Below, piece after piece: positions 39,875-64,000 of a stretch of 64,000 nucleotides of DNA. Source of the DNA: Caldithrix abyssi DSM 13497 (GTDB lineage: Bacteria; Calditrichota; Calditrichia; Calditrichales; Calditrichaceae); assembly GCF_001886815.1 (NCBI RefSeq), contig NZ_CP018099.1, positions 4,214,501 to 4,278,500 of the forward strand, read 5' to 3'. How positions within the stretch are numbered: the first letter of the stretch is position 1; every line of letters starts with the position of its first letter. Made by a program: the position numbers and the translations under genes. Below the pieces are notes generated by a model that saw only the letters and a list, made by a program, of their open reading frames with translations, searched no databases and was not told the origin of the DNA.

Positions 39875-40151
39875 TTTTAGTCAAGTCTAATATTTTGTTT
39901 CATTAATTGGGTTGAGATTATTCATGAGTCCAGTATAAAAACAACTAATTTCACGAATGAACACGAATATATTTACTGTAATTAAAATAAAAACAATAGT
40001 CCCAGTTAAATGAAAATCTATAATAATACATTTTTATAGTGGATCAAGTCCTTAAATTTGTGTAAAAAAGAAAAAAGTGAAAAATTGCCACATCCTTCCT
40101 AACTTTGATTTTTTTCAAAAAAAAAAAAGAAAAAAAAAGAAAGGAAAGGAT

Positions 40152-41414
40152 ATGGCAAAGACACAAAGAAAAGATAATGGTTTGGTGAGAGAAATTCAAA
40201 ATATTTTACTAGAAGATGAAGATTTTTTAAGAAGAATCGTTCAAGAAAATTTACAGAAGATATTGGAATCAGAGTTTGAGGATTATATACAAGCAGGACG
40301 TTATGAGCGTACAGAGCATCGCAAAGGCTACCGTAATGGGATATACAGAAGGACATTAAAGACGCGTGTAGGTGTGATAGAGTTAGAAGTAGTAAGAGAT
40401 AGGGAAGGAAATTTTAAGACAGAACTTTTCAGACGTTATCAACGAAATGAGAAGGCCTTGGTGTTATCCCTAGTAGAGATGTATCTTCAGGGGGTATCCA
40501 CCAGGAAAGTAAAACGAATAGTGGAGCACTTATGTGGAACGGAGATATCAAAAAGCACAATCAGTAACTTATCAAAAGAATTGGATGAGAATATTAATAA
40601 ATGGCGTAACCGCCCCTTAGATAAATCATATCCTTATTTAGTTATAGATGCACGATATGAGAACATACGAGAAGCAGAAGCCGGAGTAATTGGGAAGGCG
40701 GTATTTGTGATAATAGGGATCGATGCGCAAGGTTATAGAGAAATACTATCGGTAGAAATAGGAGATAGCGAGCGAGAGGATACATGGAGTGAGATATTTA
40801 GGAAATTAAAAGAGCGGGGATTAAAAGGCTTAAGCTATGTTGTATCAGATGATCATAAGGGACTTGTAAAAGCGGTAAAGCGAGAATTTCAAGGCATAAG
40901 ATGGCAACGATGTCAAGTCCATTTTATTCGCAATTTTATGGATAAAATAGGCAAGAAGAATAGCAAGGAATATTTAGAGATGTTGAGAGATGTTTTTAAT
41001 GCGCCGGAAATTAAATCGGCCAGAGAAAGGAAAGAAGGGCTAGTAAAGAAATTAGAGGATAAGAAGCCGTCGGTAGCAGACTGGTTAGATAGAGAGATAG
41101 AATTTTGTTTCACAGTTTACAGTTTGCCCATAGAGCATCGAAAGAAGATGAAGTCGACCAATATGATAGAACGGCTAAATGAAGAGATAAAAAGGCGCAG
41201 TAGAGTTGTAAGAATATTCCCAAATGATGAATCCTGTATTCGTTTGATAGGAGCAATATGCATGGAGAAATCGGAGGAATGGCAAAGTGGTCGAAGATAT
41301 TTAAATATGAGTATTGAGAATGAAGTAGAAGGAAAAAAGGAGCCTGACTGCGTGCGTTCATGCAGAGGCAGGGATGTAAAGACAGAGGTCTACGAAATGG
41401 CGAACGCGGTGTAA
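40152..41414 (+). CDS. IS256-family (mutator-type) transposase
   Basis: A 420-residue transposase beginning at the ATG at 40152 (MAKTQRKDNGLVREIQ) with AGGAAAGGA directly upstream; a longer frame through a poly-Lys stretch has no ribosome site. The DDE catalytic triad is visible as D in VIDARYEN (near 165), D in VVSDDHKG (near 232) and E in TNMIERLNEEIKRR (near 339). It catalyses cut-and-paste or copy transposition of the surrounding element. The frame is intact, so the element may be active. A decayed relative lies at 52.3 kb. Confidence 0.93.
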   Translation: MAKTQRKDNGLVREIQNILLEDEDFLRRIVQENLQKILESEFEDYIQAGRYERTEHRKGYRNGIYRRTLKTRVGVIELEVVRDREGNFKTELFRRYQRNEKALVLSLVEMYLQGVSTRKVKRIVEHLCGTEISKSTISNLSKELDENINKWRNRPLDKSYPYLVIDARYENIREAEAGVIGKAVFVIIGIDAQGYREILSVEIGDSEREDTWSEIFRKLKERGLKGLSYVVSDDHKGLVKAVKREFQGIRWQRCQVHFIRNFMDKIGKKNSKEYLEMLRDVFNAPEIKSARERKEGLVKKLEDKKPSVADWLDREIEFCFTVYSLPIEHRKKMKSTNMIERLNEEIKRRSRVVRIFPNDESCIRLIGAICMEKSEEWQSGRRYLNMSIENEVEGKKEPDCVRSCRGRDVKTEVYEMANAV

Positions 41415-41510: not shown

Positions 41511-44396
41511 TCATTCATAAATATCTTTTATCAATTCTTCAATCTTTTTATTGCTAAATTGTGTTTTAAATTTAATCTTTACTTTATCTCCAAAAAGTTT
41601 TTCGGCATGTCTTATTTTTTGCAATTCTTCTTTTATTAATGATTCTTCTTCTTTATTTTTTGTTTCAACTAAAAAATAAAGTTTCTTATCTCCATTTTCA
41701 TAATTCAATACATAAGCGAAATCCGGCGAATAGCTTTTGCCTCCAGCAACAGGAATTTTAATTGAATTTTTTGGTATCTTGGTAAATACAACTACCTCTT
41801 TAATATTGGTTTTAATGTTATCTTTTTCTAACTCCGAATCATAAAATAAATCTTCAAGAAAATAATTCTTAGCAACCTTATCTTTTGAATAAAGAATTCC
41901 TATATCAGAAGCGTCTACTTCTTTTATAGGATCGCCATATATATCGGTAAACTTCGTAGGATGTATTACATTAGTTACTTTTTGATATTCAATGCCAAAT
42001 TTATCAATCGCATTGAAAAGTAAGTATTTATCAAATTCATGTTTTATTGCTCTTAAAGTAGAATAATTCAAGTATCTATTAATGTCAATTTCATTTTGCA
42101 CATATAAAAACGATCGATGCAAGGTTTTGATGTTGGCGTTTAGCAGCTTCGACAACTCTTTTAAAAACTCAGAATACTTCATTGTAACAACTGGTATCAC
42201 TTCATCTTTCAATACAGAAATTTCTTCGTCTGCGGCAGCTTGGTTGTCTTTAATTGTCAATTTTATTTTTCTTTCCTTTATATTTTCTTCATTGAAAAAA
42301 TCTTCGTTATCTTTCAAAAAATTTATAAACATTTCTTTAAAGGTATCTTCATTTTCAAACTTATATTCAAGTATCACTTTTTCATTTAACTTTTCCCATA
42401 AGGCTTTTAATTCAGGATATTTTTCTATGCGCAAAGTAACTTTTTTCTTTTTTTCCGTTGCTTTTTTTATTTTATTTGATACCACACCGTCAAATATCAA
42501 TGGAAAATTAGCTTTAATAAAAGCAAAACCGTTTTCTTTGAATTTATTTGAACGGGTTATCACATTTTTTTCGTCTAAAAATTCCAATAGTTCGTCTTCA
42601 TTGCCGAATTGATCGTTGTAAACTTCTAAAATCTTTTTAATCATTTCTTTAGTTAATTCTTTGGCATCATCGGTTATCGGTATTGCGTTGGATTTTTCGT
42701 TGATTTCATTTACGAGCCTGTCAACAAAATCATTTTCCGTAAAATCAACATAATAATTCAAATAAAATTGCTCTCCTTTTACTCTGTTCATGTATTCGTT
42801 TACAGGCAAACGCAAGCCTCTCCCAACCTCTTGCAGTTTTGAAATCTCGCTTCCGCTGCTTCTTAACTTACATATTTGAAAAACATTTGGATTATCCCAA
42901 CCTTCCCGTAAGGTCCACTTTGAAAATATAAACCTTCTTGGATTATTTAAATCAAGAATTGCTTCTTTATCATGCAATATTTCGTTAATCTCTTTTTCTA
43001 TTGCCTCATCTTTTTCGGTGTTGTCTTTAGAAAAATATCCACCATGAGTTAAAGACAAATTTTCAATGGTTTTTTTCAAATATTCTTTGTAAAATTCACT
43101 GGTTTCTGTTTTTAATAACTCTTCGGCGTAACTTTTTATATATTGTTCAACAGTTGTTCGAACATATCCGTCCTGTTTTCTGTATTCTTCAATATTGTCA
43201 ATAAAAAACAATGTCAAAGGTTTTATTCTTACGTCTTTAGTTAACAATTCTTTTTCCAACTTAAAATGATTCTCCACTGCATTTTTAATCATTTTTTCCT
43301 GCAATGTTTCGGAATAAGAATACGGATTTAATTTATCTCCTCTTTTAAGCGATAAACCATTGGATAATACCACCTCTGATTTGTTCAAGTTTTCTATATA
43401 CAAGTCGGTCATTTCAGGATGAACAATACTTAAACTCTGTTTTTTGACTATTTTGTATTGTTTCCTTTTTTTGTTTTCAATGAGTTCAAAAGTTGCTTCT
43501 TTGCCGTCTGTGTTTACTAGCCTGACAATTACATTTTTACCAATCTCAAACTCCTCAACATAACCAATTACACCTTTTACCAAATTGTTGTTAAAAGCAT
43601 CAACCGCCGTGAGTGTGTAAATAAGATTTTCGTATTCCTTAAATGTAGCTCCAAAGCGAATAATGTATTGCGACTTTAGAAGTTGAATATTTTCCCAGGT
43701 TTTGTTTCCTTTTGCAAATTTGTGTGGCTCATCAATAATTACAAATGGCTTAACCTCTGCTAAAGCATTAAAAGGAACCGTGTATTTATCAAAAAGTGTT
43801 CTGTCAAAACTCTTTTTCATTGTATCGGAATTAATCATTCCGGCATTTATCAGTAATACTTGAATTGAATTCATATCAAAATCGATACTATTAACAAAAT
43901 TACTGACTGCCTGGGGCATATAGCTTTTTTTGTTCTTGTTGTTCTTTTGGCTCTCAACAACGTACAAATTGATGGTTTTTCCATATTGCTCTTTGAAATG
44001 TTCTCTTGCCGAAGGTGATTTGAGAAAATTTATAGTTCCTGCTTTGATTGATAGCGTAGGAACAACAATAATAAACTTAAAAATACCGTAATTTTTGTTC
44101 AATTCAAAAATGGCTTTGGTATAGGTATAAGTTTTTCCCGTTCCGGTTTCCATCATTATGTCAATGATATTACTGTCGGATTTAGGCGGTTCGGTTATGC
44201 CGTTTTCCTTCTGAACATGTAAAATATTACTAATATATTTTTTCTTATCTTCGCCCCTATTGTTTATAACGGGATTAATATATTGCCTGTTTATGCCTTG
44301 CGGTTTTTCAATTGTCAATCCTTCAAAAACGGATATTATACTTTCAACCGCTCTTGTTTGATGCGGCAAATTTTTTTCAAAATTAAAACCTTTCAT
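41511..44396 (-). CDS. res: Type III restriction enzyme, Res subunit
   Basis: A 961-residue protein of usual Res length. The N-terminal superfamily 2 helicase has Walker A METGTGKTY (near 85), the DExH-type box IIDEPHKF (near 221) and SKWTLREGWDNPNVFQIC. The C-terminal PD-(D/E)xK nuclease has SPDFAYVLNY (near 895) and FLVETKNK (near 911). With Mod it cuts DNA carrying two inversely oriented unmethylated sites after ATP-driven movement. It starts 12 bp after mod in the same operon. An IS256 element sits just past its stop and does not truncate it. Confidence 0.95.
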   Translation of the reverse strand: MKGFNFEKNLPHQTRAVESIISVFEGLTIEKPQGINRQYINPVINNRGEDKKKYISNILHVQKENGITEPPKSDSNIIDIMMETGTGKTYTYTKAIFELNKNYGIFKFIIVVPTLSIKAGTINFLKSPSAREHFKEQYGKTINLYVVESQKNNKNKKSYMPQAVSNFVNSIDFDMNSIQVLLINAGMINSDTMKKSFDRTLFDKYTVPFNALAEVKPFVIIDEPHKFAKGNKTWENIQLLKSQYIIRFGATFKEYENLIYTLTAVDAFNNNLVKGVIGYVEEFEIGKNVIVRLVNTDGKEATFELIENKKRKQYKIVKKQSLSIVHPEMTDLYIENLNKSEVVLSNGLSLKRGDKLNPYSYSETLQEKMIKNAVENHFKLEKELLTKDVRIKPLTLFFIDNIEEYRKQDGYVRTTVEQYIKSYAEELLKTETSEFYKEYLKKTIENLSLTHGGYFSKDNTEKDEAIEKEINEILHDKEAILDLNNPRRFIFSKWTLREGWDNPNVFQICKLRSSGSEISKLQEVGRGLRLPVNEYMNRVKGEQFYLNYYVDFTENDFVDRLVNEINEKSNAIPITDDAKELTKEMIKKILEVYNDQFGNEDELLEFLDEKNVITRSNKFKENGFAFIKANFPLIFDGVVSNKIKKATEKKKKVTLRIEKYPELKALWEKLNEKVILEYKFENEDTFKEMFINFLKDNEDFFNEENIKERKIKLTIKDNQAAADEEISVLKDEVIPVVTMKYSEFLKELSKLLNANIKTLHRSFLYVQNEIDINRYLNYSTLRAIKHEFDKYLLFNAIDKFGIEYQKVTNVIHPTKFTDIYGDPIKEVDASDIGILYSKDKVAKNYFLEDLFYDSELEKDNIKTNIKEVVVFTKIPKNSIKIPVAGGKSYSPDFAYVLNYENGDKKLYFLVETKNKEEESLIKEELQKIRHAEKLFGDKVKIKFKTQFSNKKIEELIKDIYE

Positions 44397-44408
44397 AGCA
44401 CCGTCTCT

Positions 44409-46400
44409 TTAATATCTGGTAATAACATCAATATCAATCTGTTTTTTGTTGGAATAACTTTTAATGTTTTCGTTTATCTCTCTTAGTGATTTGCTGTCAA
44501 AATTATAGCCGAAAAGAATAATCTTTATGGGATTGAAGTTTTTATCCGTATCAATTTTTTCAAGCAGTGCTTTCAAATGATTTGTTTTCCAACCTTTGTA
44601 TAATAAATATAAATTGCAGTCTATATAATAAGTTTTATAGCCGTTAATATCAATCTCGTGCGGTTTTTCGGTTAACTCTATTCCGTCATAAACCTGCCAG
44701 GTTATAAGTAAAGATTTAATATCATCTTCTGTAAGCTTCCCTTCGTCAAACAAACTTGTTTGTTCGGTAAGTTTATCGTTTTCTTGTAAATAATCTTTCC
44801 ATAAAGGTATTGTTTCAAAAATCTTAAATCCTAAATCCTGATTTTTAAGATTTTCAATTTCTTGTTCTAGTGAAGCGATTTTTTCTTCATTATCACCAAA
44901 GTTTAATTGACTTTCAAGTTCCTTTATTTCTTTTTCTTTTGCTTTGATTTTTTCGTCAATTTCTGATTTTATTTTTTTTGCTGCTCTAATAAGGCGCTCT
45001 TTGCAAATTTCAAAAATTGTAGGTTCTTCAACTCCTAATTCATCTTTTACAAAATCATAAGCTGTTTTGTTCTTTTTCGGGTCAATAGGTTCAGGAAGTT
45101 GTACAAGGATATACTTGCGGTTGCCACCATCTTCGGCGTTAAGTTGCATGACAGCCTCACCTGTGGTCCCACTACCGGCAAAAAAGTCAAGATAAATGCA
45201 GTCAGTACATTCAATCAAACTTATAAGGTATGAAATTATTCTTGATGGCTTTGGATAATCAAAACATTGTATGCCATTGAAAAGATTTTTAACCTCCTTG
45301 CTACCTCCCGCTGTAGTTGAACTATTTTCACCTGAAATTATTGAATCAACAGCGGAAAAGGTTTTATGCCCTTTTTTTATTACTTTGTAAGCTTCAAACA
45401 ATCCATCTTCTCGCCTTTCAAATTCGACAAGACCATTTGAAATAAGTTTTTTCATTTCTTCTTTTCCTACTCGCCATCTTCCATAGGTCCCATCAGGTTT
45501 TATAGGGTAGACTTCTATCCCATTTGGCCCAGGTATAGGATAGTACATAGAGGGTCTATCTTCTTTACTATCACCTTGCCCCCATTGTCGTAACCGTTCT
45601 CTTCCCCCATTGCTAATTTTCACATCTCGTTTAAAAGAAATATTTCTTTTCATCTTAGCATAAGTTAATACATACTCATGGATTTGAGCAACCTGATCTG
45701 CGGTACCTCCTTTACCTAATCTTGAACGCCATACAAACTGAATAACAAAATTCTCCTCTCCAAAAATCTCATCCATCAAAATTTTTAACTGTGCCACTTC
45801 ATTATCGTCAATGGAAACAAAAATCACTCCGTCTTCTCTAAGTAGTTGCCGTGCAATATAAAGCCTTGGATACATAAAAGTAAGCCAGGCGCTGTGAGAA
45901 TTACTTTTGCTGTTTACAAAATCAAGTATTCGTTTTGCTCTCTCTTCATCTATTCCGGCAAGTTCCATAAGCTGCGGTACTGTAAATTTTCTGTCGTCTT
46001 GATATACAAAACCGTCGCTACCAGTATTATAAGGCGGGTCAATGTATATCATCTTTATTTTTTCGTAATAAGCGTTAACCAAATGTTTTAAAACTTCAAG
46101 GTTATCGCCTTTTATAAGTAAGTTTTGAGAATTTCTGTTTTCTTCTTTTTGATTAAACGCTTCGCTTTCCTTAAGTAATGTCCGCACAGGATCTGTTGCC
46201 AATACTCTTGCATAATTCTTGCCCAGCCACTCCAGGCCATAGCTTTCTTTTGAGAGATTTATTTCGTTTAATTTAATCTCTTCATTGAATTTTTCTATAT
46301 TAAAATTTCCATCTTTGTCAAAACAATGCGGGAAATGTTTTTTTAGAATATCAATTTTATCAGGCATTCTTTGTTCGAAAATTTTTTCTGTTTTTTCCAT
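44409..46400 (-). CDS. mod: Type III DNA methyltransferase, Mod subunit
   Basis: A 663-residue adenine-N6 methyltransferase of beta class. The catalytic motif DPPYNTG (near 121) precedes the SAM-binding motif FAGSGTTGEAV (near 407), with the target-recognition region between. A coiled-coil segment (about 485-525) follows. It methylates one strand of a short asymmetric site and supplies specificity to Res. The ATG has an AGAGG site. No simple-sequence tract suggesting phase variation was seen. Confidence 0.95.
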   Translation of the reverse strand: MEKTEKIFEQRMPDKIDILKKHFPHCFDKDGNFNIEKFNEEIKLNEINLSKESYGLEWLGKNYARVLATDPVRTLLKESEAFNQKEENRNSQNLLIKGDNLEVLKHLVNAYYEKIKMIYIDPPYNTGSDGFVYQDDRKFTVPQLMELAGIDEERAKRILDFVNSKSNSHSAWLTFMYPRLYIARQLLREDGVIFVSIDDNEVAQLKILMDEIFGEENFVIQFVWRSRLGKGGTADQVAQIHEYVLTYAKMKRNISFKRDVKISNGGRERLRQWGQGDSKEDRPSMYYPIPGPNGIEVYPIKPDGTYGRWRVGKEEMKKLISNGLVEFERREDGLFEAYKVIKKGHKTFSAVDSIISGENSSTTAGGSKEVKNLFNGIQCFDYPKPSRIISYLISLIECTDCIYLDFFAGSGTTGEAVMQLNAEDGGNRKYILVQLPEPIDPKKNKTAYDFVKDELGVEEPTIFEICKERLIRAAKKIKSEIDEKIKAKEKEIKELESQLNFGDNEEKIASLEQEIENLKNQDLGFKIFETIPLWKDYLQENDKLTEQTSLFDEGKLTEDDIKSLLITWQVYDGIELTEKPHEIDINGYKTYYIDCNLYLLYKGWKTNHLKALLEKIDTDKNFNPIKIILFGYNFDSKSLREINENIKSYSNKKQIDIDVITRY

Positions 46401-47426: not shown

Positions 47427-49844
47427 TTAACGCCATGCGTGTTCAATTTTTCCACAATAACATCTAATTTTTTTATTAACTGAATCATAATATTTAATAG
47501 AAACATATTTTTTACAATTTTCACAATAGAATGAATTTCTTAATTCAAGAACATCTGACCAGAATGCTTTGAAATCACCCATGGTTGCTTTAAAAGTACT
47601 GTCATGAGATGCTTTGTTACCGATAAATGTAGAACCGATTAATCGATCTATTGGAGAAGTATCGATTGAAGTGCCTGCATGTTTCTTTAAGTGTCCTTTT
47701 AAAGCAGAAAGTAATTCATTCGCCATTCTATCTTCATTCTTATCATTAAACAAAAATTTCACCATTACCGAAAGATGAAAAGCTATGTCTTTAAGCAAAC
47801 TTTCTAAATATTTGCGAATTTTATTCCCCAAACTGTCGAGTTCATTATTTAATATTAGTTTTTCAATTTGCTCTTTTAAGGACGGCAAGTTAATATCAAT
47901 CACCGGGCCATGTTTATCTCGCCATTTAAACGTATTAATAAGCCAATTTTTGCCTTTTACCATTTTAGCCACATAATCAAACCAGTTTTTTTCATGAGTC
48001 ATTAATATTATTTGATAATCCGAGAACTTCTCAACAAGAAGATGAGCAAAACGAACTCTATGGTTTGAGTCAAAACTTGAGATCACATCATCCAAAATAA
48101 AAAATTTGTTTTTTTTATTAAACGCCTTAACTGAGGCTAAAAAGAAAGCCAATCCTAAACAATTTAGATGAGATTCACTTAAATATTTATTAGGAGGATT
48201 TACTTCATTTTCAAAGAATTTGAATTGAATTGTTATACCTGCAAATTCATCGTTTTTTTTAATAGGAATAAGATTTATGTCCTCGATATGTTCACCAGGA
48301 TTCATAAAAACATACAACTCGTTAATATCATTGGAAAGATGATCTAAAAAAGACTTGAATCCATCTTCCATTTTCTTGATAAAAGCCGCATAAATTATTT
48401 CTAATGTATATTGTTGTTTCTCTAATAATTCTTTAGAATTTTTTAATCTCTTAATTTCAAGATATGCGTTTTTTGAAAGCAAAATTTTACTATGAATTTC
48501 GAATTTTGAATCACCTTTTTTATTTGTTTTTAACTTTTCCAAATTTTCTGAAGATATTTTTTTTAATTCTTGAAATTTACTTTCATCAATAGATAAATCA
48601 TTAATTGGTTTTATCATTTTACCTGTTATAATATCTACGTTTGTTTCGAATTCATAATTTGAATAATCTTTATTAAGTTGTTCTATTTTTAATTTTAATT
48701 CTTTATTTTGATCCAAATTAATCAGAAATTCAGACGATAAATTGTTAATTAGGCTTTTTGCTTTAATTATATTTGATTGAACTTGAGATTTCAATTCATT
48801 TAATGTAGATTTTTCTTCCTTGTATTTTTTTAGTTCTTCGATCCTCTCTTGTAATTCTCTTAATAAATCCAGTCTATTTTTTGGTTGTAAACATAAGGGA
48901 CAAATCTCATCTTTAATTATTTCTTCTTTTAACACTCGTTCACCCTCCGATAAAAGGGCTTCGAGTTTTATTTTATTTAATTTATCTATATCAGAAATAA
49001 TGTTTTGGTATTTCTGGTAATACTCTTCGTATTGTTCGTCAATTTTTTTAGTAATATCAATCAATTGAGCAACTGTTGCCTTCACTTTATTCCAAAATAG
49101 TTGTTGTTCAACCAGTTGTATATCTTCCGGTTTCTTTAATAATTCAAGAATTTCATCTATTTCATTAAGAGTATTGACTCTCTTTTTTAATTTTAATGGT
49201 TCTAGAATAATATTTATTGTATCAAAATATTGTTTATCAGATACAATATTTTGTCCGAGTTGTTCAATTAATTGGGATTGTTGATAACCAATTTGGGAAG
49301 TAAAATTGCTGTTTTTAATCTCTCTTCTTAATGCATTCAATGTTTTTCTTAAAATGTCTCTGGTTTTGATAACTTCCGAAAATCCAATAATAGCAGACAA
49401 GGTATTCAATTTCTCTGTTTTTGTTGCTAAAATAAAACTAACCAAATCTCCATATCTCAAATAGATCTGTTCTTTTTGAGATTTTTCTAAAAAAGAATTA
49501 AAAGTGGGAGAGTTATTTGAATAATTGGAGATTAACTTAGAATTTGATAAAGATATAGTTTTTGAAGAGTTAAATTCTGATTTAGTATATTCAATTTTTA
49601 TGTACCCATCATCTGAGTCATCTAAAAAAATATTTCGTAATCCCTCTATACCTTTTTTCCCAATTTCTTCATTCGAAAGATGAGAAATTTTGTCATAATA
49701 AAACCACTCAATAGCATCAGTTATACTGCTTTTTCCGGAACCGTTTTCCCCATACAATAAAATTGAATGACTGTTTAACGAGATACTAATCTCATCGTTA
49801 ATTCCTCGTAATCCTTTAATGATTAGTTTTTTGATTTTAGTCAT
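47427..49844 (-). CDS. SMC/Rad50-like ATPase with zinc hook
   Basis: An 805-residue ABC-type ATPase: Walker A YGENGSGKSS (near 33-40), long coiled coils with a CPLC zinc-hook-like turn (near 316), signature LSESHLNCLGLAFF, Walker B FFILDDVISSFD (near 586) and switch His in ILMTHEK. A C-terminal extension of about 150 residues ends with a Cys pair plus CYCGK, probably a zinc ribbon. Such ATPases bind DNA and act in several phage-defence systems (e.g. Lamassu, Septu, RloC families). Here the gene overlaps a 61-residue gene by 8 bases and follows a GIY-YIG-like nuclease and a WYL protein. The C-terminal extension does not match an effector I can name. Confidence 0.88.
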   Translation of the reverse strand: MTKIKKLIIKGLRGINDEISISLNSHSILLYGENGSGKSSITDAIEWFYYDKISHLSNEEIGKKGIEGLRNIFLDDSDDGYIKIEYTKSEFNSSKTISLSNSKLISNYSNNSPTFNSFLEKSQKEQIYLRYGDLVSFILATKTEKLNTLSAIIGFSEVIKTRDILRKTLNALRREIKNSNFTSQIGYQQSQLIEQLGQNIVSDKQYFDTINIILEPLKLKKRVNTLNEIDEILELLKKPEDIQLVEQQLFWNKVKATVAQLIDITKKIDEQYEEYYQKYQNIISDIDKLNKIKLEALLSEGERVLKEEIIKDEICPLCLQPKNRLDLLRELQERIEELKKYKEEKSTLNELKSQVQSNIIKAKSLINNLSSEFLINLDQNKELKLKIEQLNKDYSNYEFETNVDIITGKMIKPINDLSIDESKFQELKKISSENLEKLKTNKKGDSKFEIHSKILLSKNAYLEIKRLKNSKELLEKQQYTLEIIYAAFIKKMEDGFKSFLDHLSNDINELYVFMNPGEHIEDINLIPIKKNDEFAGITIQFKFFENEVNPPNKYLSESHLNCLGLAFFLASVKAFNKKNKFFILDDVISSFDSNHRVRFAHLLVEKFSDYQIILMTHEKNWFDYVAKMVKGKNWLINTFKWRDKHGPVIDINLPSLKEQIEKLILNNELDSLGNKIRKYLESLLKDIAFHLSVMVKFLFNDKNEDRMANELLSALKGHLKKHAGTSIDTSPIDRLIGSTFIGNKASHDSTFKATMGDFKAFWSDVLELRNSFYCENCKKYVSIKYYDSVNKKIRCYCGKIEHAWR

Positions 49845-50022
49845 TATTAGCTTTCTCCCGCAGTTCTAAAAGCGCATTAGATAAATTTTTATCAGATAAT
49901 TTACCTGAATTATAAAGCTCAATTATAATTTTAATAACATCTTCATCAATATCCGAAATATTTTGTATTTCTTGAAAAAATTCATCTAAGATTTGTTTTC
50001 CGCTTTTTATGTCGCTATTCAT
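49837..50022 (-). CDS. 61-residue protein coupled to the ATPase
   Basis: Starts at an ATG with AGAGGGG upstream. Its stop overlaps the ATPase start (ATGACTAA), so the two are translationally coupled. It is acidic and helical (ILDEFFQEIQNI, DVIKIIIELYNSGKLSDKNL), with no membrane segment. It is probably a small subunit or regulator of the ATPase. Family unknown. Confidence 0.75.
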   Translation of the reverse strand: MNSDIKSGKQILDEFFQEIQNISDIDEDVIKIIIELYNSGKLSDKNLSNALLELREKANND

Positions 50023-50031
50023 TTTCCCCTC

Positions 50032-50484
50032 TTATTCAAAATATTGCCAATCAATTTCGATATTTACATCCAATTTAATGTTCATAATTTCAAAACCTGA
50101 TTTATTGTTACAAATTGGATAAATACCATAGTTCTTCACAAAATTAAGGATAAAATAACTTTCTAAATCTTCCACTCGGTAATCCCATAAATTTCTCAAC
50201 ATCTCATAATTAATATATGTAAAAAATAACTGATCCACTTTTTTATAATTTGTAATACCTATATTTCTCGATGTCCCTTCATAATGATCAGAAAGTCTTT
50301 TTCCAATACTATTGGTTTTCTTTTCGCTCATACCTATGTAAAGCAGACGTGATCTTTTGAACGGATATGCTATATATATTTGTTTCGAAAAAATAAAATA
50401 TAATCCTCTTAAACCTATTAATGGTTTAAAAAATCTGCTTGAAAATTCTTTAGGTTCATCAAAATAAATTTTGATTTCTTTCAT
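50032..50484 (-). CDS. GIY-YIG-like nuclease
   Basis: A 150-residue protein with features of a GIY-YIG endonuclease: GLYFIF (GIY position), LLYIGMSEK (YIG), a basic helix GKRLSDHYEG with the conserved Arg, a Glu in VEDLESYFILNF (metal ligand), and a terminal YPICNN. GIY-YIG enzymes cut DNA with one divalent metal. The spacing is longer than in typical 90-residue domains, so this is a divergent member. It lies 16 bp after the WYL gene and 9 bp before the small gene. It is probably the effector of the four-gene operon. Confidence 0.6.
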   Translation of the reverse strand: MKEIKIYFDEPKEFSSRFFKPLIGLRGLYFIFSKQIYIAYPFKRSRLLYIGMSEKKTNSIGKRLSDHYEGTSRNIGITNYKKVDQLFFTYINYEMLRNLWDYRVEDLESYFILNFVKNYGIYPICNNKSGFEIMNIKLDVNIEIDWQYFE

Positions 50485-58246: not shown

Positions 58247-59779
58247 ATGGAAAATAGCGTTCTAATGACAATAGAAATACGTTCCATGAAAAGCTTACGT
58301 TACAAAATTGGGCTGGGCTATCTTTTTATTATACTTGCCAATATCGTCATGGTGGTCTTTGTTATTTACCACATTCGACAGTTAAGTCAACCCATCACTC
58401 AAATATTAAGCGAAAAATATAGGAATGTTAACGCGGCAGAGAACATGAAATTAGCCCTGGCACAACAGGAAGCCGCCCAATTTTCCATGATCGAAGAGGG
58501 CTTCGATTCCACGCTTTACTACAATTTTAACACCTATAAAAATGAATTTTTGAACTGGCACCAGAGAGCCATTGAAGGAGTTGCCTTACCAGAAGAACCT
58601 GAAATTTTAGACAGTTTAATGTTTGCATTCCGACATTACCTGGCAGATTCGGACTCACTGCAAAAGATGCTCCATGGTGGTTTTTCATATAGGCAAATAA
58701 AAAAATTTCACTACTATGTTGTTTTTCCCCAGGTTAAAACTATTGATTCGTTGTGCACGGTTTTAAAAGAAGTAAACCTAACGGCCATTAACGAGGCCAA
58801 TTTGACAGCGCAAAAAATTTCTCGTAAAACCACTTCGGTCATCGTATTGTTCTCCATTTTTTTAATCGTCATTAGCATGGTTGCCAGTTTGTATTTAACG
58901 CGACGAATTGTGCGCCCCATTCGCCAGACCACCGACACGGTGAAAAAAATTGGCCGGGGTCAATTAGATCAAAAAGTAGCGATTGACAGCGACGATGAAA
59001 TTGGTCAATTGGCCGCCGAATTTAATAAGATGACCGGCCGACTGGCCGCATACGAAAAGATGAATATCGAACAAATTATCGTGGAGAAGAGAAAGTCAGA
59101 GGCCATCATTAGCAGCATCCCCGCGGCTATCATTGTGACGGACGCCAACGGATCAATTATTTTAATGAATGATGTGGCTCGCGGCCTCTTCAATCTTGAA
59201 AAAAATGATCTTAGCGACAAAAAAATCACCGAATTAATAAACCATCAAGCCATTACACGTCTCTTCTCTCCGGATGCTTCAAAGCAAAAAAAGGAAAAGT
59301 CTGGTTTGATTTCACTCACTCTCAATAACGAAGTGACCTTTTTTGAGATGCGTTCTATTTTTGTATTGGACAGGCATAAACACGTGCAAAACGTGGTCAT
59401 TTTACTTCAGGACGTTACCAGTTTCAAAAAATTGGAGCGCTTAAAGTCCGAATTCATGGCCACCATATCTCACGAACTAAAAACACCATTAACGTCGCTC
59501 AACATGACCATCGATATTCTGTTGAGAAGAGTAAAAGGCCCGCTGAATCAAACGCAGCTGGACTTATTACAGGGTGCCCAAAACGATATTAAACGATTAA
59601 AAGCTTTTGTTACCGAGCTGCTGGAATACTCGCGCATCGAATCCGGAAACTATCCCCTTAATTTGCAGTCCATCGAGGTGGAACAATTAATCGCCTATGC
59701 CGCACGGCCATTTTTACAATCTTTTTCGAAAAAAAATATCACCTTTAAAAACACAATTCGAGCGCCATTAAAAATATAA
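58247..59779 (+). pseudogene. Histidine kinase truncated before its ATPase domain
   Basis: 510 residues remain. Membrane segments near 25-45 and 200-220 flank a periplasmic helical sensor region. Then follow HAMP (RRIVRPIRQTTDTVKK), PAS (SAIISSIPAAIIVTDANGS) and HisKA with phospho-acceptor His in ATISHELKTPLTSLN. The reading ends at IRAPLKI-stop, just where the HATPase domain should begin; no N, G1 or G2 box follows in any frame. The next bases are two 22-bp tandem repeats and phage genes. The kinase was probably cut by prophage insertion; the remaining product can accept but not donate phosphate. ATG at 58265 or 58286 is also possible. Confidence 0.8.
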
Positions 59780-59781
59780 CG

Positions 59782-59825
59782 TTTCACCTGGTTTGAGAAT
59801 TTATTTCACTTGGTTTGAGAATTTT
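59782..59825. repeat. Two abutting 22-bp repeats, probable Mu-like transposase sites
   Basis: Unit 1 (59782-59803) begins TTTCACCTGGTTTGAGAA; unit 2 (59804-59825) begins TTTCACTTGGTTTGAGAA. They differ at two positions in 22. Mu transposase binds 22-bp end sites that share a CGTTTCAY core, and the first unit is preceded by CG. Position exactly between the broken kinase and phage tail genes suits the right end of a Mu-like prophage. Confidence 0.65.
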
Positions 59826-59872
59826 TAAATTTAATTTTAACCACCTTATTTAGCCGTTAAAAACTCTTTAAA

Positions 59873-59887
59873 CTGTCAATACGACAG
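59873..59887 (-). terminator. Possible phage late-operon terminator
   Basis: CTGTC-AATAC-GACAG stem directly after the stop of the last phage gene, followed on the minus strand by TTTAAAGAGTTTTT. Confidence 0.45.
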
Positions 59888-59888
59888 C

Positions 59889-61313
59889 TTAAAATAATGT
59901 ACAATGAGTTTTATTATTTAACAAATCAATTATTAATTTCCTAATAGGACGATTAAAGCTTAATATATTTACTTTTTTAGTAATATCAATTGAAGTTATT
60001 CCATGGATTTTAAAAGTTAAATTATTTTCTTTTTCATAATATAGGCTATTAAATACAGAAGCTAAATATTCAACACATTTTTGAATTTTATATAAAGTAC
60101 GATCATTTGCGCCGCTCGGCGTTTTGTCAATTAAAAATACGCGCCCATCATAATTCATGTCTGCAAAATAATATTTGCTATAAATGGTTGATGGGTCTAG
60201 GGGATCTTCTTGAGATTTTATTAAATCATTTATTGGAGAACTTAAGCTATACTCTGCAGCGAAAATCATTCCTGTTTCTATTTCATTTGAATAAGCATCC
60301 TGACCATATTTCATGGCCCAGTCAGTACTATAATCATCTGGATAAACGGCGCTTGTTGGATAATCCGATAAAGAAGCGCCTTTATATTGGACGGTTAATC
60401 GTTTAAAAAAATCAGTGGCGTCAATTATAATTTTCTTGAAATCCTGAACATAACTAACGCCAACTGTTTTTTTATGTTCATAATTACCAATAGTATTAGA
60501 AGTTAAAACGCTCCAGTTTTTAGTTGCTTTAATTTCAATATATTTTATTACCGCCCGATTTTCTAATTTTTTAACCGATAAAAGCGATTCAGCAGAAAGC
60601 GCTTGCGAAGCGCTTTCACCCTGCCTGGGAAGGACGTAATAAATCCCATTCAAATTAAAAATATTCAACGCCAGATAACGGATAATATAGCTTAAAAGCG
60701 TTCTGCATAGAAAATTACCGCTGGTTTCTGCAAGTTTAAGATCATTAAATGTGTAATTTAATCCGCAATTTTCAGAAATAATATTTTGAGCGGTAAAATA
60801 ATAACTACCATTATGGAATTTTGAAAGCATGGTTTGAACCAGGCTCTGAAGCGATTCGCTCCCTGTGTAGCCAATATCTGATAACGTGATATTGTTATCG
60901 TAATAATACTTGATGCCGTCAAATATCTTAAATTTAATGGTGCGATATTTAAGCGCGCCGTTATCTACATAGTAATCCGATTTTTGGATGGAATTAAAAT
61001 CAAGATAGCCGGTAAAATAGAGTTGTCCATCCCTATAAATTTCAATAAATGTTTTATTTTTCCCATTAGTAAAATTTGTTCCTTCAAAAAAATCGCCACC
61101 TTGAAGTGTCAAAGTGAAATTTGGCAAGCGGATGGTTTGTTCGTTTGCTTTCGCTTCAAATTCGATGCGAATGGGACTTATTTTTAAAACATGCAGGTTA
61201 GTATTAATGGTTTGCGCCGTTGTATCTTCATAAAAAAAGCGAAATTTTAATTTTCCGGAAGCAGTTCGATATTCATAGCCCTGTTGTGGGAAATAATATT
61301 CAACCAACGCCAT
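59889..61313 (-). CDS. Phage distal-tail-like protein
   Basis: A 474-residue protein beginning MALVEYYFPQQGYEYRT. The N-terminal half is beta-rich (LTLQGGDFFEGTNF, FIEIYRDGQLYFTGYLDF) and resembles distal tail or baseplate hub proteins that follow tape measure genes. No catalytic motif. It overlaps the tape measure stop by one base. It is the last phage gene before the putative prophage end; the C-terminus (NNKTHCTLF) is short and could be natural or truncated. Confidence 0.6.
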   Translation of the reverse strand: MALVEYYFPQQGYEYRTASGKLKFRFFYEDTTAQTINTNLHVLKISPIRIEFEAKANEQTIRLPNFTLTLQGGDFFEGTNFTNGKNKTFIEIYRDGQLYFTGYLDFNSIQKSDYYVDNGALKYRTIKFKIFDGIKYYYDNNITLSDIGYTGSESLQSLVQTMLSKFHNGSYYFTAQNIISENCGLNYTFNDLKLAETSGNFLCRTLLSYIIRYLALNIFNLNGIYYVLPRQGESASQALSAESLLSVKKLENRAVIKYIEIKATKNWSVLTSNTIGNYEHKKTVGVSYVQDFKKIIIDATDFFKRLTVQYKGASLSDYPTSAVYPDDYSTDWAMKYGQDAYSNEIETGMIFAAEYSLSSPINDLIKSQEDPLDPSTIYSKYYFADMNYDGRVFLIDKTPSGANDRTLYKIQKCVEYLASVFNSLYYEKENNLTFKIHGITSIDITKKVNILSFNRPIRKLIIDLLNNKTHCTLF

Positions 61314-64000
61314 TAAATTTCTCCACGTTTAAGCTGTTCCTGGCCGTTCTCAACAACAATAGCCAGTTCTTCGGCGTCAATTTCGGCACGCAATTCCTTG
61401 TTCTCAATAAGTTCTTTAATTTCATTTAAAAGTTCGATAATCGACGAGTTATCGGTCTGAACCGTTGTCTGATTGATATTTGTAACGCTCCCCCCGGCCA
61501 ATGCGCCGGCAAATTGCATCGGTTCAACCGCAGGGGGTGCAAACGCTATTTTAAAACCTTCAACCATCCGATTTAAGGCATTTTCAAATTGCGTTAATAA
61601 GCGATTAAAAAAGGCGCTAAAATCAATATTAAACAATCCTTTTGCAAACATTTCTTTAAATACCGCTATAAAATCCTTTTCCGGCGCGATGATTTCCGGA
61701 CCGGCTTCGCCGACTAAACCAAGCGTTGGTTCTTCTACCTTGCCGCCTTTGGCATGTCCTTTAATTTTAGGCTTTATTCCTTTTAATTTATTCTGGGCGG
61801 CTGTAAATTGTTGATCTTTTGCTCCTGCACTTTCATTGAAAGATACGCTTGTTATTTTTCTTACTTGAGCATAACCTAATGCCAATTGAGCGGCGGCCGC
61901 GGCTAAATTCCACGGATACGGATAAGCCGTATAGGCTTTAGTGACAGCTTCGTATGTATTAATAATAGCCCTGGCAATAGCAGCTGCTTTTCCGATGTTA
62001 AACAGCGTTCTATTGGTTCCCTGGAAGGCGTCCATTAATTTGGAAAATATGTTGGTAGCGCTTAAAGCAGCCTGTTTATCCAGGTTTGCGCGCTCTAAAA
62101 GAGCTTTTTTATATTCTAAACTCTGTTCGCCATATTTCTTTTTGGCATAAGCCACTTTGCGGTCTAAAAATGCGGCGTAAGCCTGGTAATCGATTTCCTG
62201 GGCCTGCCATTCCCATTCGCGGCGCGCTTCTTCGGCTTCAAATCGCCTCTCTTCTTCGGCAGCTTCAATTTCCCGCTTTTGCTGGCGATATTGTTCTTCG
62301 ATTAGCGCTTTAGCCTCTTCGTTTTCGGCAAATTTTTGCAATTGTTCCTGATACCAGATGGCCAGTTCTTTTAGTTCTCTCTGATGCGCGTCTTGAATGG
62401 TCGCTAAACGTAATTCCTGTAATTCTTTTTCCTGCTCTAAGGCATGTTGTTTGGCTTCTTCGTTTAGTTTTTTCTTTTGATCAATGAGCTTTAGATATTC
62501 AATGGATTCCTCGCCATACGTTTGGCGGGCGGCCTCAATGCGCTGGTCTAAAATGTTTTGATATTCTTGCAGGCTAAGGCGTCCGGTCTGAAATTTATAA
62601 TCCTGTAATTCCTGTTCTTTTTGCAGACGTTTCTTTATTTCGTCTTCGGTTATTTTAGTCTTTTGTTGCTCGGTTGTTTTAAAGGCCGGAATGCTTTTTT
62701 GATCGATTTCGCTTTGTTTTTGAACATATTGGGCATGGATGGACGTGATATTGCGGTCGCGTTCGCGCGTAATGGCTTTTAGGCGTTCTGCGGTTTGTTG
62801 ACCGGAGTTTAACGCGGCATCGGCAACCTGTTTTAAGCCCTGTTTAATGCCTTCAACGTCTAATTTAAAGGCGGAACTTAATATTTTACCAATCCCGCCA
62901 AAGTAATTTTTTACAAAATCAATGTAGCCTTTAATAAGCTCTTTACCGTAATTGACGAACCATTTTAAATATTCGAAGGCGACTTTTAATTTTTCCTGAA
63001 ACCCGCCTAAATTGGTAGCCCAGGCGGTGTAAAGAAGCGTGGCCGCGGTAATAATTAAACCAAGCCAGCCCATGGCGCTTTTAATGGAAACACCCAATAT
63101 TTTAAATGAAGTGTTCCACGCATTAAACATAGGGATTAATTTAAAACCTATAACGCTTAACCCCGCCGCAACCGTAATAAATTGCAAGACGCCGTCATTT
63201 AAGTTGTTGAAAAATGTAAGCGCTTTGTTGCCAATTTCTAACAAAGGCACATAGGCTTTATTTATCAGTCGCCCAAATTTAGCCCGTAATTCTTCAATAT
63301 TAGCCGCGGTCGCAGCCTGCTTTCCGGCGTTTGATTCTAAAAAATCGCCATACGCGCCCTGTACCTTGCCGCCGTATTCCATTACCGCGTTTAGCAATGC
63401 CTGCGCCTTTTGCTGATCCGTCAGCTTCCCGGCCGTCGTCCCGATTTGTCGGGCATACTCGGCGTAAATGGCGGAAGGATTTTTCTGGAATAGTTTGTCA
63501 GTCCCTTCATCTATGCCTAGTATGGCCTGATTAATGGCCGTTAAAGCCTGTTCTGCGTCTAATCCTTGAGCTGCGGCCAAATCCAACAGTCTGCCCATGG
63601 CCGCACTTGTTTGGGAAACATCCCCGGCTTTTTGCCCTAATTTAGTCAGGGCAATGGTCATTTCGTTAGCCTGAATGGTGTTTAACTTATAGGCCTCTTT
63701 AGCTTTATTGGCGGTTATGTTTAATTGATCTAAATCAGCACCGGTCAGTTTAGCGGTTGCAGCTAATTTCATATTCGATTGCTCGAAATCATTGGCCGCA
63801 TTAATCAAATCGCCAAGCGGAGCTAAAAGGCGTTTATACCCTTCGATGGTGAAAAATACTTTTTCGCCGAATTCAGCCACACGCTGAAAGGCTGTTTTCA
63901 TCTGATTTATTTTTTGCGTGGATTTTTCTACAACGTTATTTACCGCTTTGCCAAAATTTTTTATTTTGACTTCGCCAGTGGCGCTGTCGATCTCAATTTT
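61313..64000 (-). CDS. Phage tape measure protein (partial, N-terminus off window)
   Basis: The frame is open to the window edge: 33 codons precede the ATG at 63901 (IDSATGEVKIKNFGKAVNN), so the true start lies beyond 64000. At least 895 residues. It has a tape measure core region (ANDFEQSNMKLAATAKLTG, QANEMTIALTKLGQKAGD), hydrophobic membrane-like segments (about 255-310 from the internal ATG), a long coiled coil (about 410-620) and a C-terminal GHAKGGKVEEPTLGLVGEAG motif typical of these proteins. It sets tail length and is ejected with DNA. Phages of siphovirus or myovirus type are implied. Confidence 0.9.
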   Translation of the reverse strand, partial: KIEIDSATGEVKIKNFGKAVNNVVEKSTQKINQMKTAFQRVAEFGEKVFFTIEGYKRLLAPLGDLINAANDFEQSNMKLAATAKLTGADLDQLNITANKAKEAYKLNTIQANEMTIALTKLGQKAGDVSQTSAAMGRLLDLAAAQGLDAEQALTAINQAILGIDEGTDKLFQKNPSAIYAEYARQIGTTAGKLTDQQKAQALLNAVMEYGGKVQGAYGDFLESNAGKQAATAANIEELRAKFGRLINKAYVPLLEIGNKALTFFNNLNDGVLQFITVAAGLSVIGFKLIPMFNAWNTSFKILGVSIKSAMGWLGLIITAATLLYTAWATNLGGFQEKLKVAFEYLKWFVNYGKELIKGYIDFVKNYFGGIGKILSSAFKLDVEGIKQGLKQVADAALNSGQQTAERLKAITRERDRNITSIHAQYVQKQSEIDQKSIPAFKTTEQQKTKITEDEIKKRLQKEQELQDYKFQTGRLSLQEYQNILDQRIEAARQTYGEESIEYLKLIDQKKKLNEEAKQHALEQEKELQELRLATIQDAHQRELKELAIWYQEQLQKFAENEEAKALIEEQYRQQKREIEAAEEERRFEAEEARREWEWQAQEIDYQAYAAFLDRKVAYAKKKYGEQSLEYKKALLERANLDKQAALSATNIFSKLMDAFQGTNRTLFNIGKAAAIARAIINTYEAVTKAYTAYPYPWNLAAAAAQLALGYAQVRKITSVSFNESAGAKDQQFTAAQNKLKGIKPKIKGHAKGGKVEEPTLGLVGEAGPEIIAPEKDFIAVFKEMFAKGLFNIDFSAFFNRLLTQFENALNRMVEGFKIAFAPPAVEPMQFAGALAGGSVTNINQTTVQTDNSSIIELLNEIKELIENKELRAEIDAEELAIVVENGQEQLKRGEI

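Follow-up and report, generated by a model that had tools for sequence, protein, structure and literature searches.

The two abutting 22-bp repeats at positions 59782–59825 of the window, the 64,000-nucleotide stretch of the Caldithrix abyssi genome that was analysed (C1:4214501–4278500 of 4,978,541 bp), are with a probability of roughly 96% R1 and R2, the predicted sites to which the transposase binds at the right tip of a temperate phage that relies on Mu-type transposition for both replication and integration. MuA-type end sites had been proposed here in the first-pass annotation, and this reading is supported by inverted units at the opposite end, by MuA- and MuB-like genes between the ends, by a 5-bp duplication and by a host gene that is restored in frame.

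Repeat units and exact ends of the element

The two units, TTTCACCTGGTTTGAGAATTT (window 59782–59802) and TTTCACTTGGTTTGAGAATTT (window 59804–59824), start 22 bp apart and are alike at 20 of the 21 letters compared (95% identity). As full 22-bp sites they correspond to the predicted R1 (59782..59803, + strand, element positions 8–29) and R2 (59804..59825, + strand, element positions 30–51), which abuts R1. With up to three mismatches allowed, the unit pattern matches the window only at these repeats (0.02 matches expected), and none of 100 shuffled windows gave two matches. A search of the whole genome returned six matches, all located at the extremities of two elements, A and B: genome 4274282 and 4274304 (the repeats described here) and 4303141 (inverted) for A, and 236786, 266903 and 266925, in mirror image, for B. 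The reversed pattern, searched as a control, had no match in the 4.98 Mb genome, and the 39 other genomes of the phylum gave only single matches with one or two mismatches, equal to the level of the reversed control. Both the repeats themselves and their reported location at a host-phage junction are confirmed; to the left of the junction lies a histidine kinase gene of the host, to the right lie phage genes.

The letters of the unit prove little on their own, because its similarity to the Mu consensus (15/22) is reached by ~0.4% of the element's own 22-mers, and we rejected this match as proof. The unit letters do differ from those of the Mu sites, as had been remarked before. The GTTTCAC core that had also been pointed out holds for the first unit: CGTTTCAC, at element positions 6–13 of the right end, equals the CGTTTCAC found at 28–35 in R2 of Mu (NC_000929), with the register shifted by one 22-bp unit.

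Alignment of A with B set the ends to the base: the shared sequence breaks off abruptly on both sides, and what lies outside is unrelated. Element A occupies genome C1:4274275–4303282 (29,008 bp), with 59775..64000 lying in the window; its right end, on the side of the repeats, starts at window 59775 with 5'-TATAACGTTTCACC, and its left end, read inward, is 5'-TGTTATTTTTCAATTAGTTTGAG. The outermost 7 bp on the right (5'-TATAACG, 59775..59781, + strand) are the same in A and B, outside which the flanks differ, and both copies carry TG at the left tip and TA at the right. The lack of a TG outside the first unit, which had left the exact end uncertain, was correctly observed: the right tip is TA, the TG lies at the other end 29 kb away, and the uncertainty is resolved by the start at window 59775.

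The two copies sit at unrelated sites, each within its own 5-bp target duplication. For A this is AAAAA, with the left copy at 59770..59774 and the right copy past the far end at genome 4303283–4303287 (flanks CCATT-AAAAA / AAAAA-CATTT); for B it is GAAAT (flanks TTCGT-GAAAT / GAAAT-TCGTG). The sequence alone would also accommodate a left tip one base further outward with a 4-bp duplication, as the same base is present there in both copies; we prefer the 5-bp duplication with a TG left tip, because both copies then fit the Mu rule. The TA right tip is free of such ambiguity. Insertion of A truncated the histidine kinase gene, whose 5' part (58247..59779, + strand) now takes its last few codons from phage sequence; when the flanks of A are joined, an uninterrupted, in-frame kinase of 629 aa is restored, from which we conclude that A jumped into this gene. 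Over 16 kb the two copies share 99.5% identity, and B, located elsewhere in the genome, measures 30,288 bp, insertion sequence included. Both are under the 36–39 kb usual for transposable phages (PMC8705779), a length that is not defining, and shorter members of the group, for example one of 33,755 bp, are also found among the matches.

At the left end the inverted unit, for which a search had been suggested as a check, is present three times within 143 bp of genome 4303282, at element positions 8–29 (L1), 71–92 (L2) and 122–143 (L3), in the opposite orientation to the right-end units. The layout is L1-L2-L3 / R1R2, with L1 and R1 in identical register from the tip. A matrix built from the five sites, run over the first 300 bp from the right tip, yielded no R3, the best further score (6.2 bits) lying within the shuffled background. 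Mu carries three binding sites per end with uneven spacing (PMC3562280; PMC3362531), and its genome (NC_000929) shares with the Caldithrix element an R1 and R2 22 bp apart, three spaced sites at the left end and TTCAC at 9–13 from the tip, in L1 of Mu. In contrast, the spacing from L1 to L3 is 63 and 51 bp here and 105 and 40 bp in Mu, Mu has R1–R3 where the Caldithrix element has no convincing R3, and the right tip here is TA. As far as predicted sites can tell, the logic of spaced units on the left and abutting units on the right is common to both.

Further loci of the same window lie on the host side of the junction. A type III restriction-modification pair (window 41511–46400, − strand; Res of 961 aa and Mod of 663 aa, PADLOC/Pfam) is adjoined by a candidate defence locus at window 47427–50484 (− strand), where an 805-aa SMC/RecF-like ATPase resembles the LmuB (Lamassu) and Mads3 models and is followed by small unmatched genes. 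A Mutator/IS256-type transposase (window 40077–41414, + strand, E 7.5e-134) is located at the edge of the defence cluster.

Transposase and early region of the two copies

The transposase of A (732 aa, genome 4299657–4301855, − strand) matches the PHROG 'transposase' family (E 5e-96) and Mu-transpos_C (E 6e-17). Its hhalign alignment with MuA covers 544 columns (E 5.8e-19) from MuA residue 2, the I-alpha region included, to residue 590, at ~24% identity, and places D322, D397 and E443 opposite MuA D269, D336 and E392, the catalytic triad named in PMC3362531. The best solved structure is that of the Mu transpososome (4fcy), by profile (3.6e-18) as well as by predicted fold (2.4e-17), the predicted model being of modest confidence (pLDDT 64). 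MuA I-alpha (1tns) matches the N-terminus with a Foldseek probability of 1.00 and a TMt of 0.64 on the predicted fold, with a profile E of only 0.057; this enhancer-binding domain, a trait of Muvirus, is thus present by hhalign and by predicted-fold match. A MuB-like gene (PHROG 296 'DNA transposition protein', E 1e-88) is found at genome 4298479–4299357. The repressor (genome 4302610–4303095) belongs to Phage_CI_repr; the winged-helix repressor homologous to MuA I-alpha that characterises Muvirus is absent, and we found no similarity between the repressor and the transposase N-terminus. In B, the transposase gene is split after ~codon 135 by an insertion sequence (L009:4052–5638) coding for a 528-aa DDE transposase (DDE_Tnp_1_6/DUF772), which probably leaves B incapable of moving on its own.

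The early regions of A and B differ in two sharply bounded blocks. Block 1 (element ~480–682) comprises the DNA-binding half of the repressor and the early promoter (TTGACA-17-TATATT), and block 2 (~1490–1733) comprises the transposase N-terminus, residues ~21–98. The stretch between them is mostly 84–98% identical, with one 50-base step at 76%, and the end sites and the transposase beyond residue 100 (~100%) are practically identical. Within the repressor, the differences are confined to the HTH part, the coiled-coil C-terminus being 95–100% identical. Each element has three operator-like repeats in block 1, at about the same three places and of different sequence: TTGCRAARTG at element 489, 634 and 664 in A, and TTTCGCA at element 490, 654 and 674 in B.

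From these parts a mechanism can be proposed. Domain I-beta/gamma of the MuA-like transposase would bind R1R2 and L1, L2 and L3 and pair both ends; the transposase would nick the right tip at TA and the left tip at TG and, with the assistance of the MuB-like ATPase, join them to target positions separated by 5 bp. An insertion of this kind would account for the duplication seen in the kinase gene. While the phage is a prophage, the CI-type repressor would occupy the three operators over and near the early promoter, ~0.49–0.67 kb from the left end, so that the transposase is kept off. The operator region probably doubles as a transposition enhancer through the N-terminal I-alpha of the transposase.

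In Mu, I-alpha binds the enhancer at O1–O2 (PMC3562280; PMC5357137), and the A proteins of Mu and D108 (NC_013594) differ mainly in their N-terminal ~76 residues (30–45% identity in the first 60) and are near-identical beyond. The A/B difference suggests the same heteroimmunity pattern, built in this case around a CI-type repressor unrelated to that of Mu; the whole repressor differs between Mu and D108 (15–40% along its length), whereas between A and B only its HTH part does. We consider it an even bet that a distant Mu-like phage with mixed TG/TA tips has rebuilt the operator/enhancer switch of Mu with an unrelated CI-type repressor, in such a way that I-alpha reads the three operators of the repressor, and that heteroimmune variants must swap repressor HTH, operators and I-alpha as a set, with the end-binding domain and end sites left unchanged. 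For the single pair at hand, the chances that A and B are heteroimmune, with I-alpha reading the operator region as an enhancer, appear equally balanced.

Somewhat below even odds stands the reading in which the prophage is Mu-like and the N-terminal exchange is ordinary mosaicism, unlinked to that of repressor and operators, with an I-alpha that makes no enhancer use of the operators. Only one A/B pair is available, the tail protein and the tape-measure N-terminus differ between the copies too, and the CI-type repressor, unlike that of Mu, is not homologous to I-alpha, all of which would fit unlinked exchange. However, the two sharp early blocks fall exactly on the two DNA-recognition domains plus operators, the conservation between them is mostly high even with its single weaker stretch, the same N-terminal exchange separates Mu from D108, and the coupling of I-alpha and enhancer is established in Mu (PMC3562280).

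Phage genes and other kinds of element

The check for MuA- and MuB-like genes in the neighbourhood, also proposed earlier, was positive, with MuA-, MuB-, Gam- (E 8e-41), GemA- (E 6e-21) and Mu-portal-like (Portal_Mu, E 3e-34) genes located between the ends. Profile matches also identified a terminase (E 2e-51) and a major head protein (E 3e-16), and the element codes for a scaffold/protease, a tape measure, an amidase and a CII-like regulator. Inside the window, the phage gene nearest the right end (474 aa, 59889..61313, − strand) has no family match and is adjoined by the tape-measure gene (903 aa, 61313..64000, − strand), which runs on to genome 4278524.

Several modules of the two copies show features of their own. 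The portal, terminase and neighbouring genes (L008:190–5547) lie on the strand opposite to that of the early and late genes, so that the packaging module is inverted compared with the colinear order of Mu. The tape-measure proteins of A (L007:3814–6525) and B (L010:10748–13414) differ over the first ~300 residues and are near-identical over the rest, which marks a mosaic joint, and one tail position is taken by different proteins in A (L007:11043–12743) and B (L010:5340–6437). The B version is FGE-sulfatase-like (PHROG 2889, E 3e-83; Pfam, E 2e-5) and resembles the variable proteins of diversity-generating retroelements; such a retroelement was rejected, with no PF00078 (RVT_1) reverse transcriptase in the genome. 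In both copies, a 366-aa phage protein (genome 4293820–4294920, − strand; L008:5820–6920) ends in a CdiA_C domain (E 8e-16), and its gene is followed by an 83-aa gene (genome 4293576–4293827, − strand; L008:5576–5827). This arrangement is that of a MuF-type antibacterial polymorphic toxin with its immunity gene (PMC5576092), although a Pfam search gave no match for the MuF part.

That the element is a Tn7/TnsB- or IS21-like transposon instead of a phage is very improbable: the fold of the transposase is matched by TnsB and IstA structures as well, but MuA is the best match by profile and fold alike, and the element has genes for a terminase, a Mu portal, a major head protein, a scaffold/protease, a tape measure, an amidase, Gam, GemA and CI. 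A conventional integrase prophage with chance edge repeats, for example repressor operators, is hardly credible. Direct repeats that abut where host and phage meet could be att or operator sequences, but neither A nor B has a tyrosine integrase (PF00589), the operators form a distinct set of repeats in the interior of the element, and two copies with different flanks and with 5-bp duplications that differ between the two insertion sites contradict it. The combination named in the first-pass annotation as fatal to Mu-type ends, an opposite end free of the unit plus a tyrosine integrase, is the reverse of what was found, as inverted copies are present and the three PF00589 genes of the genome lie far off, at 0.08, 3.45 and 4.87 Mb.

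Place among transposable phages

By all mechanistic features testable here, the element is a divergent Mu-like transposable prophage, a kind that is itself known. It displays the saltovirus traits of a MuA-type DDE transposase with end-binding domains, an adjacent MuB-type AAA activator, 5-bp duplications at unrelated sites, several ~22-bp units (predicted sites) inverted at both ends, and tailed-phage head and packaging genes; the TG...CA termini, which are usual without being defining, the TA-TA prophages of Leptospira being accepted as transposable, are replaced by TG on the left and TA on the right in both copies. With Mu it shares the 5-bp duplication, the MuA domains from I-alpha to Mu-transpos_C, Gam, GemA, the portal, and the gene order repressor / small early regulator(s) / A / B, and it departs from Mu-like phages in its TG/TA tips, 29-kb size and CI-type repressor, as well as from Mu in the opposite strand of its portal/terminase block. 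Against the Mu-type reading we counted the TG/TA in place of TG/CA termini, the size, the lack of a convincing R3 and the weak match of the unit to the consensus.

Close relatives were absent from the 39 other genomes of the phylum, from 50,697 phage records and, the same phage apart, from IMG/VR. Outside the Caldithrix genome, transposase identity reaches at most ~34%; the same transposase occurs in none of the 39 genomes, and Mu-transpos_C appears in one of them only, weakly. The transposases of two Gastranaerophilales MAG contigs (L013, L015), an uncultured bacterium (L014) and an IMG/VR sequence (L017) are 31–34% identical over most of their length and share the N-terminal HTH and the DDE motif; among clustered ~22-bp repeats at ≥19/22, none in these distant relatives resembled end sites. 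The suggestion of a new transposable-phage group is therefore fair at the level of sequence distance, with no close relative in the phylum, phage or IMG/VR sets.

The transposable prophages of Leptospira (PMC8705779) are similar in having a DDE transposase with an activator, TA at one end at least, and a host outside the Proteobacteria. They differ in their TA-TA or TG-CA tips, 6-bp duplications and length of 35–40 kb, compared with TG-TA, 5 bp and 29 kb here, and the Leptospira transposases examined are without the enhancer-binding domain, whereas I-alpha is present in the Caldithrix transposase. According to the same paper, all Mu- and B3-like phages described earlier have TG-CA, TA-TA prophages occur in Leptospira, with their existence elsewhere posed as a question, and the enhancer-binding domain was, in 2021, so far Mu-specific (PMC8705779). 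The C. abyssi genome paper describes phage-associated genes in islands, with no Mu-like prophage in its main text (PMC5317091).

Base-exact Mu-type ends are hereby extended to the phylum Calditrichota. The question of TA tips outside Leptospira (PMC8705779) receives a partial answer, as TA is found here at one end only, and I-alpha, held to be Mu-specific, is found in a distant transposase. The coordinated difference between A and B makes the enhancer hypothesis testable in the phage of a thermophile and, if the hypothesis is true, A and B would provide naturally occurring pairs of alleles with which to probe the specificity of the enhancer in a phage other than Mu. The transposase of such a phage could also serve as a heat-stable tool.
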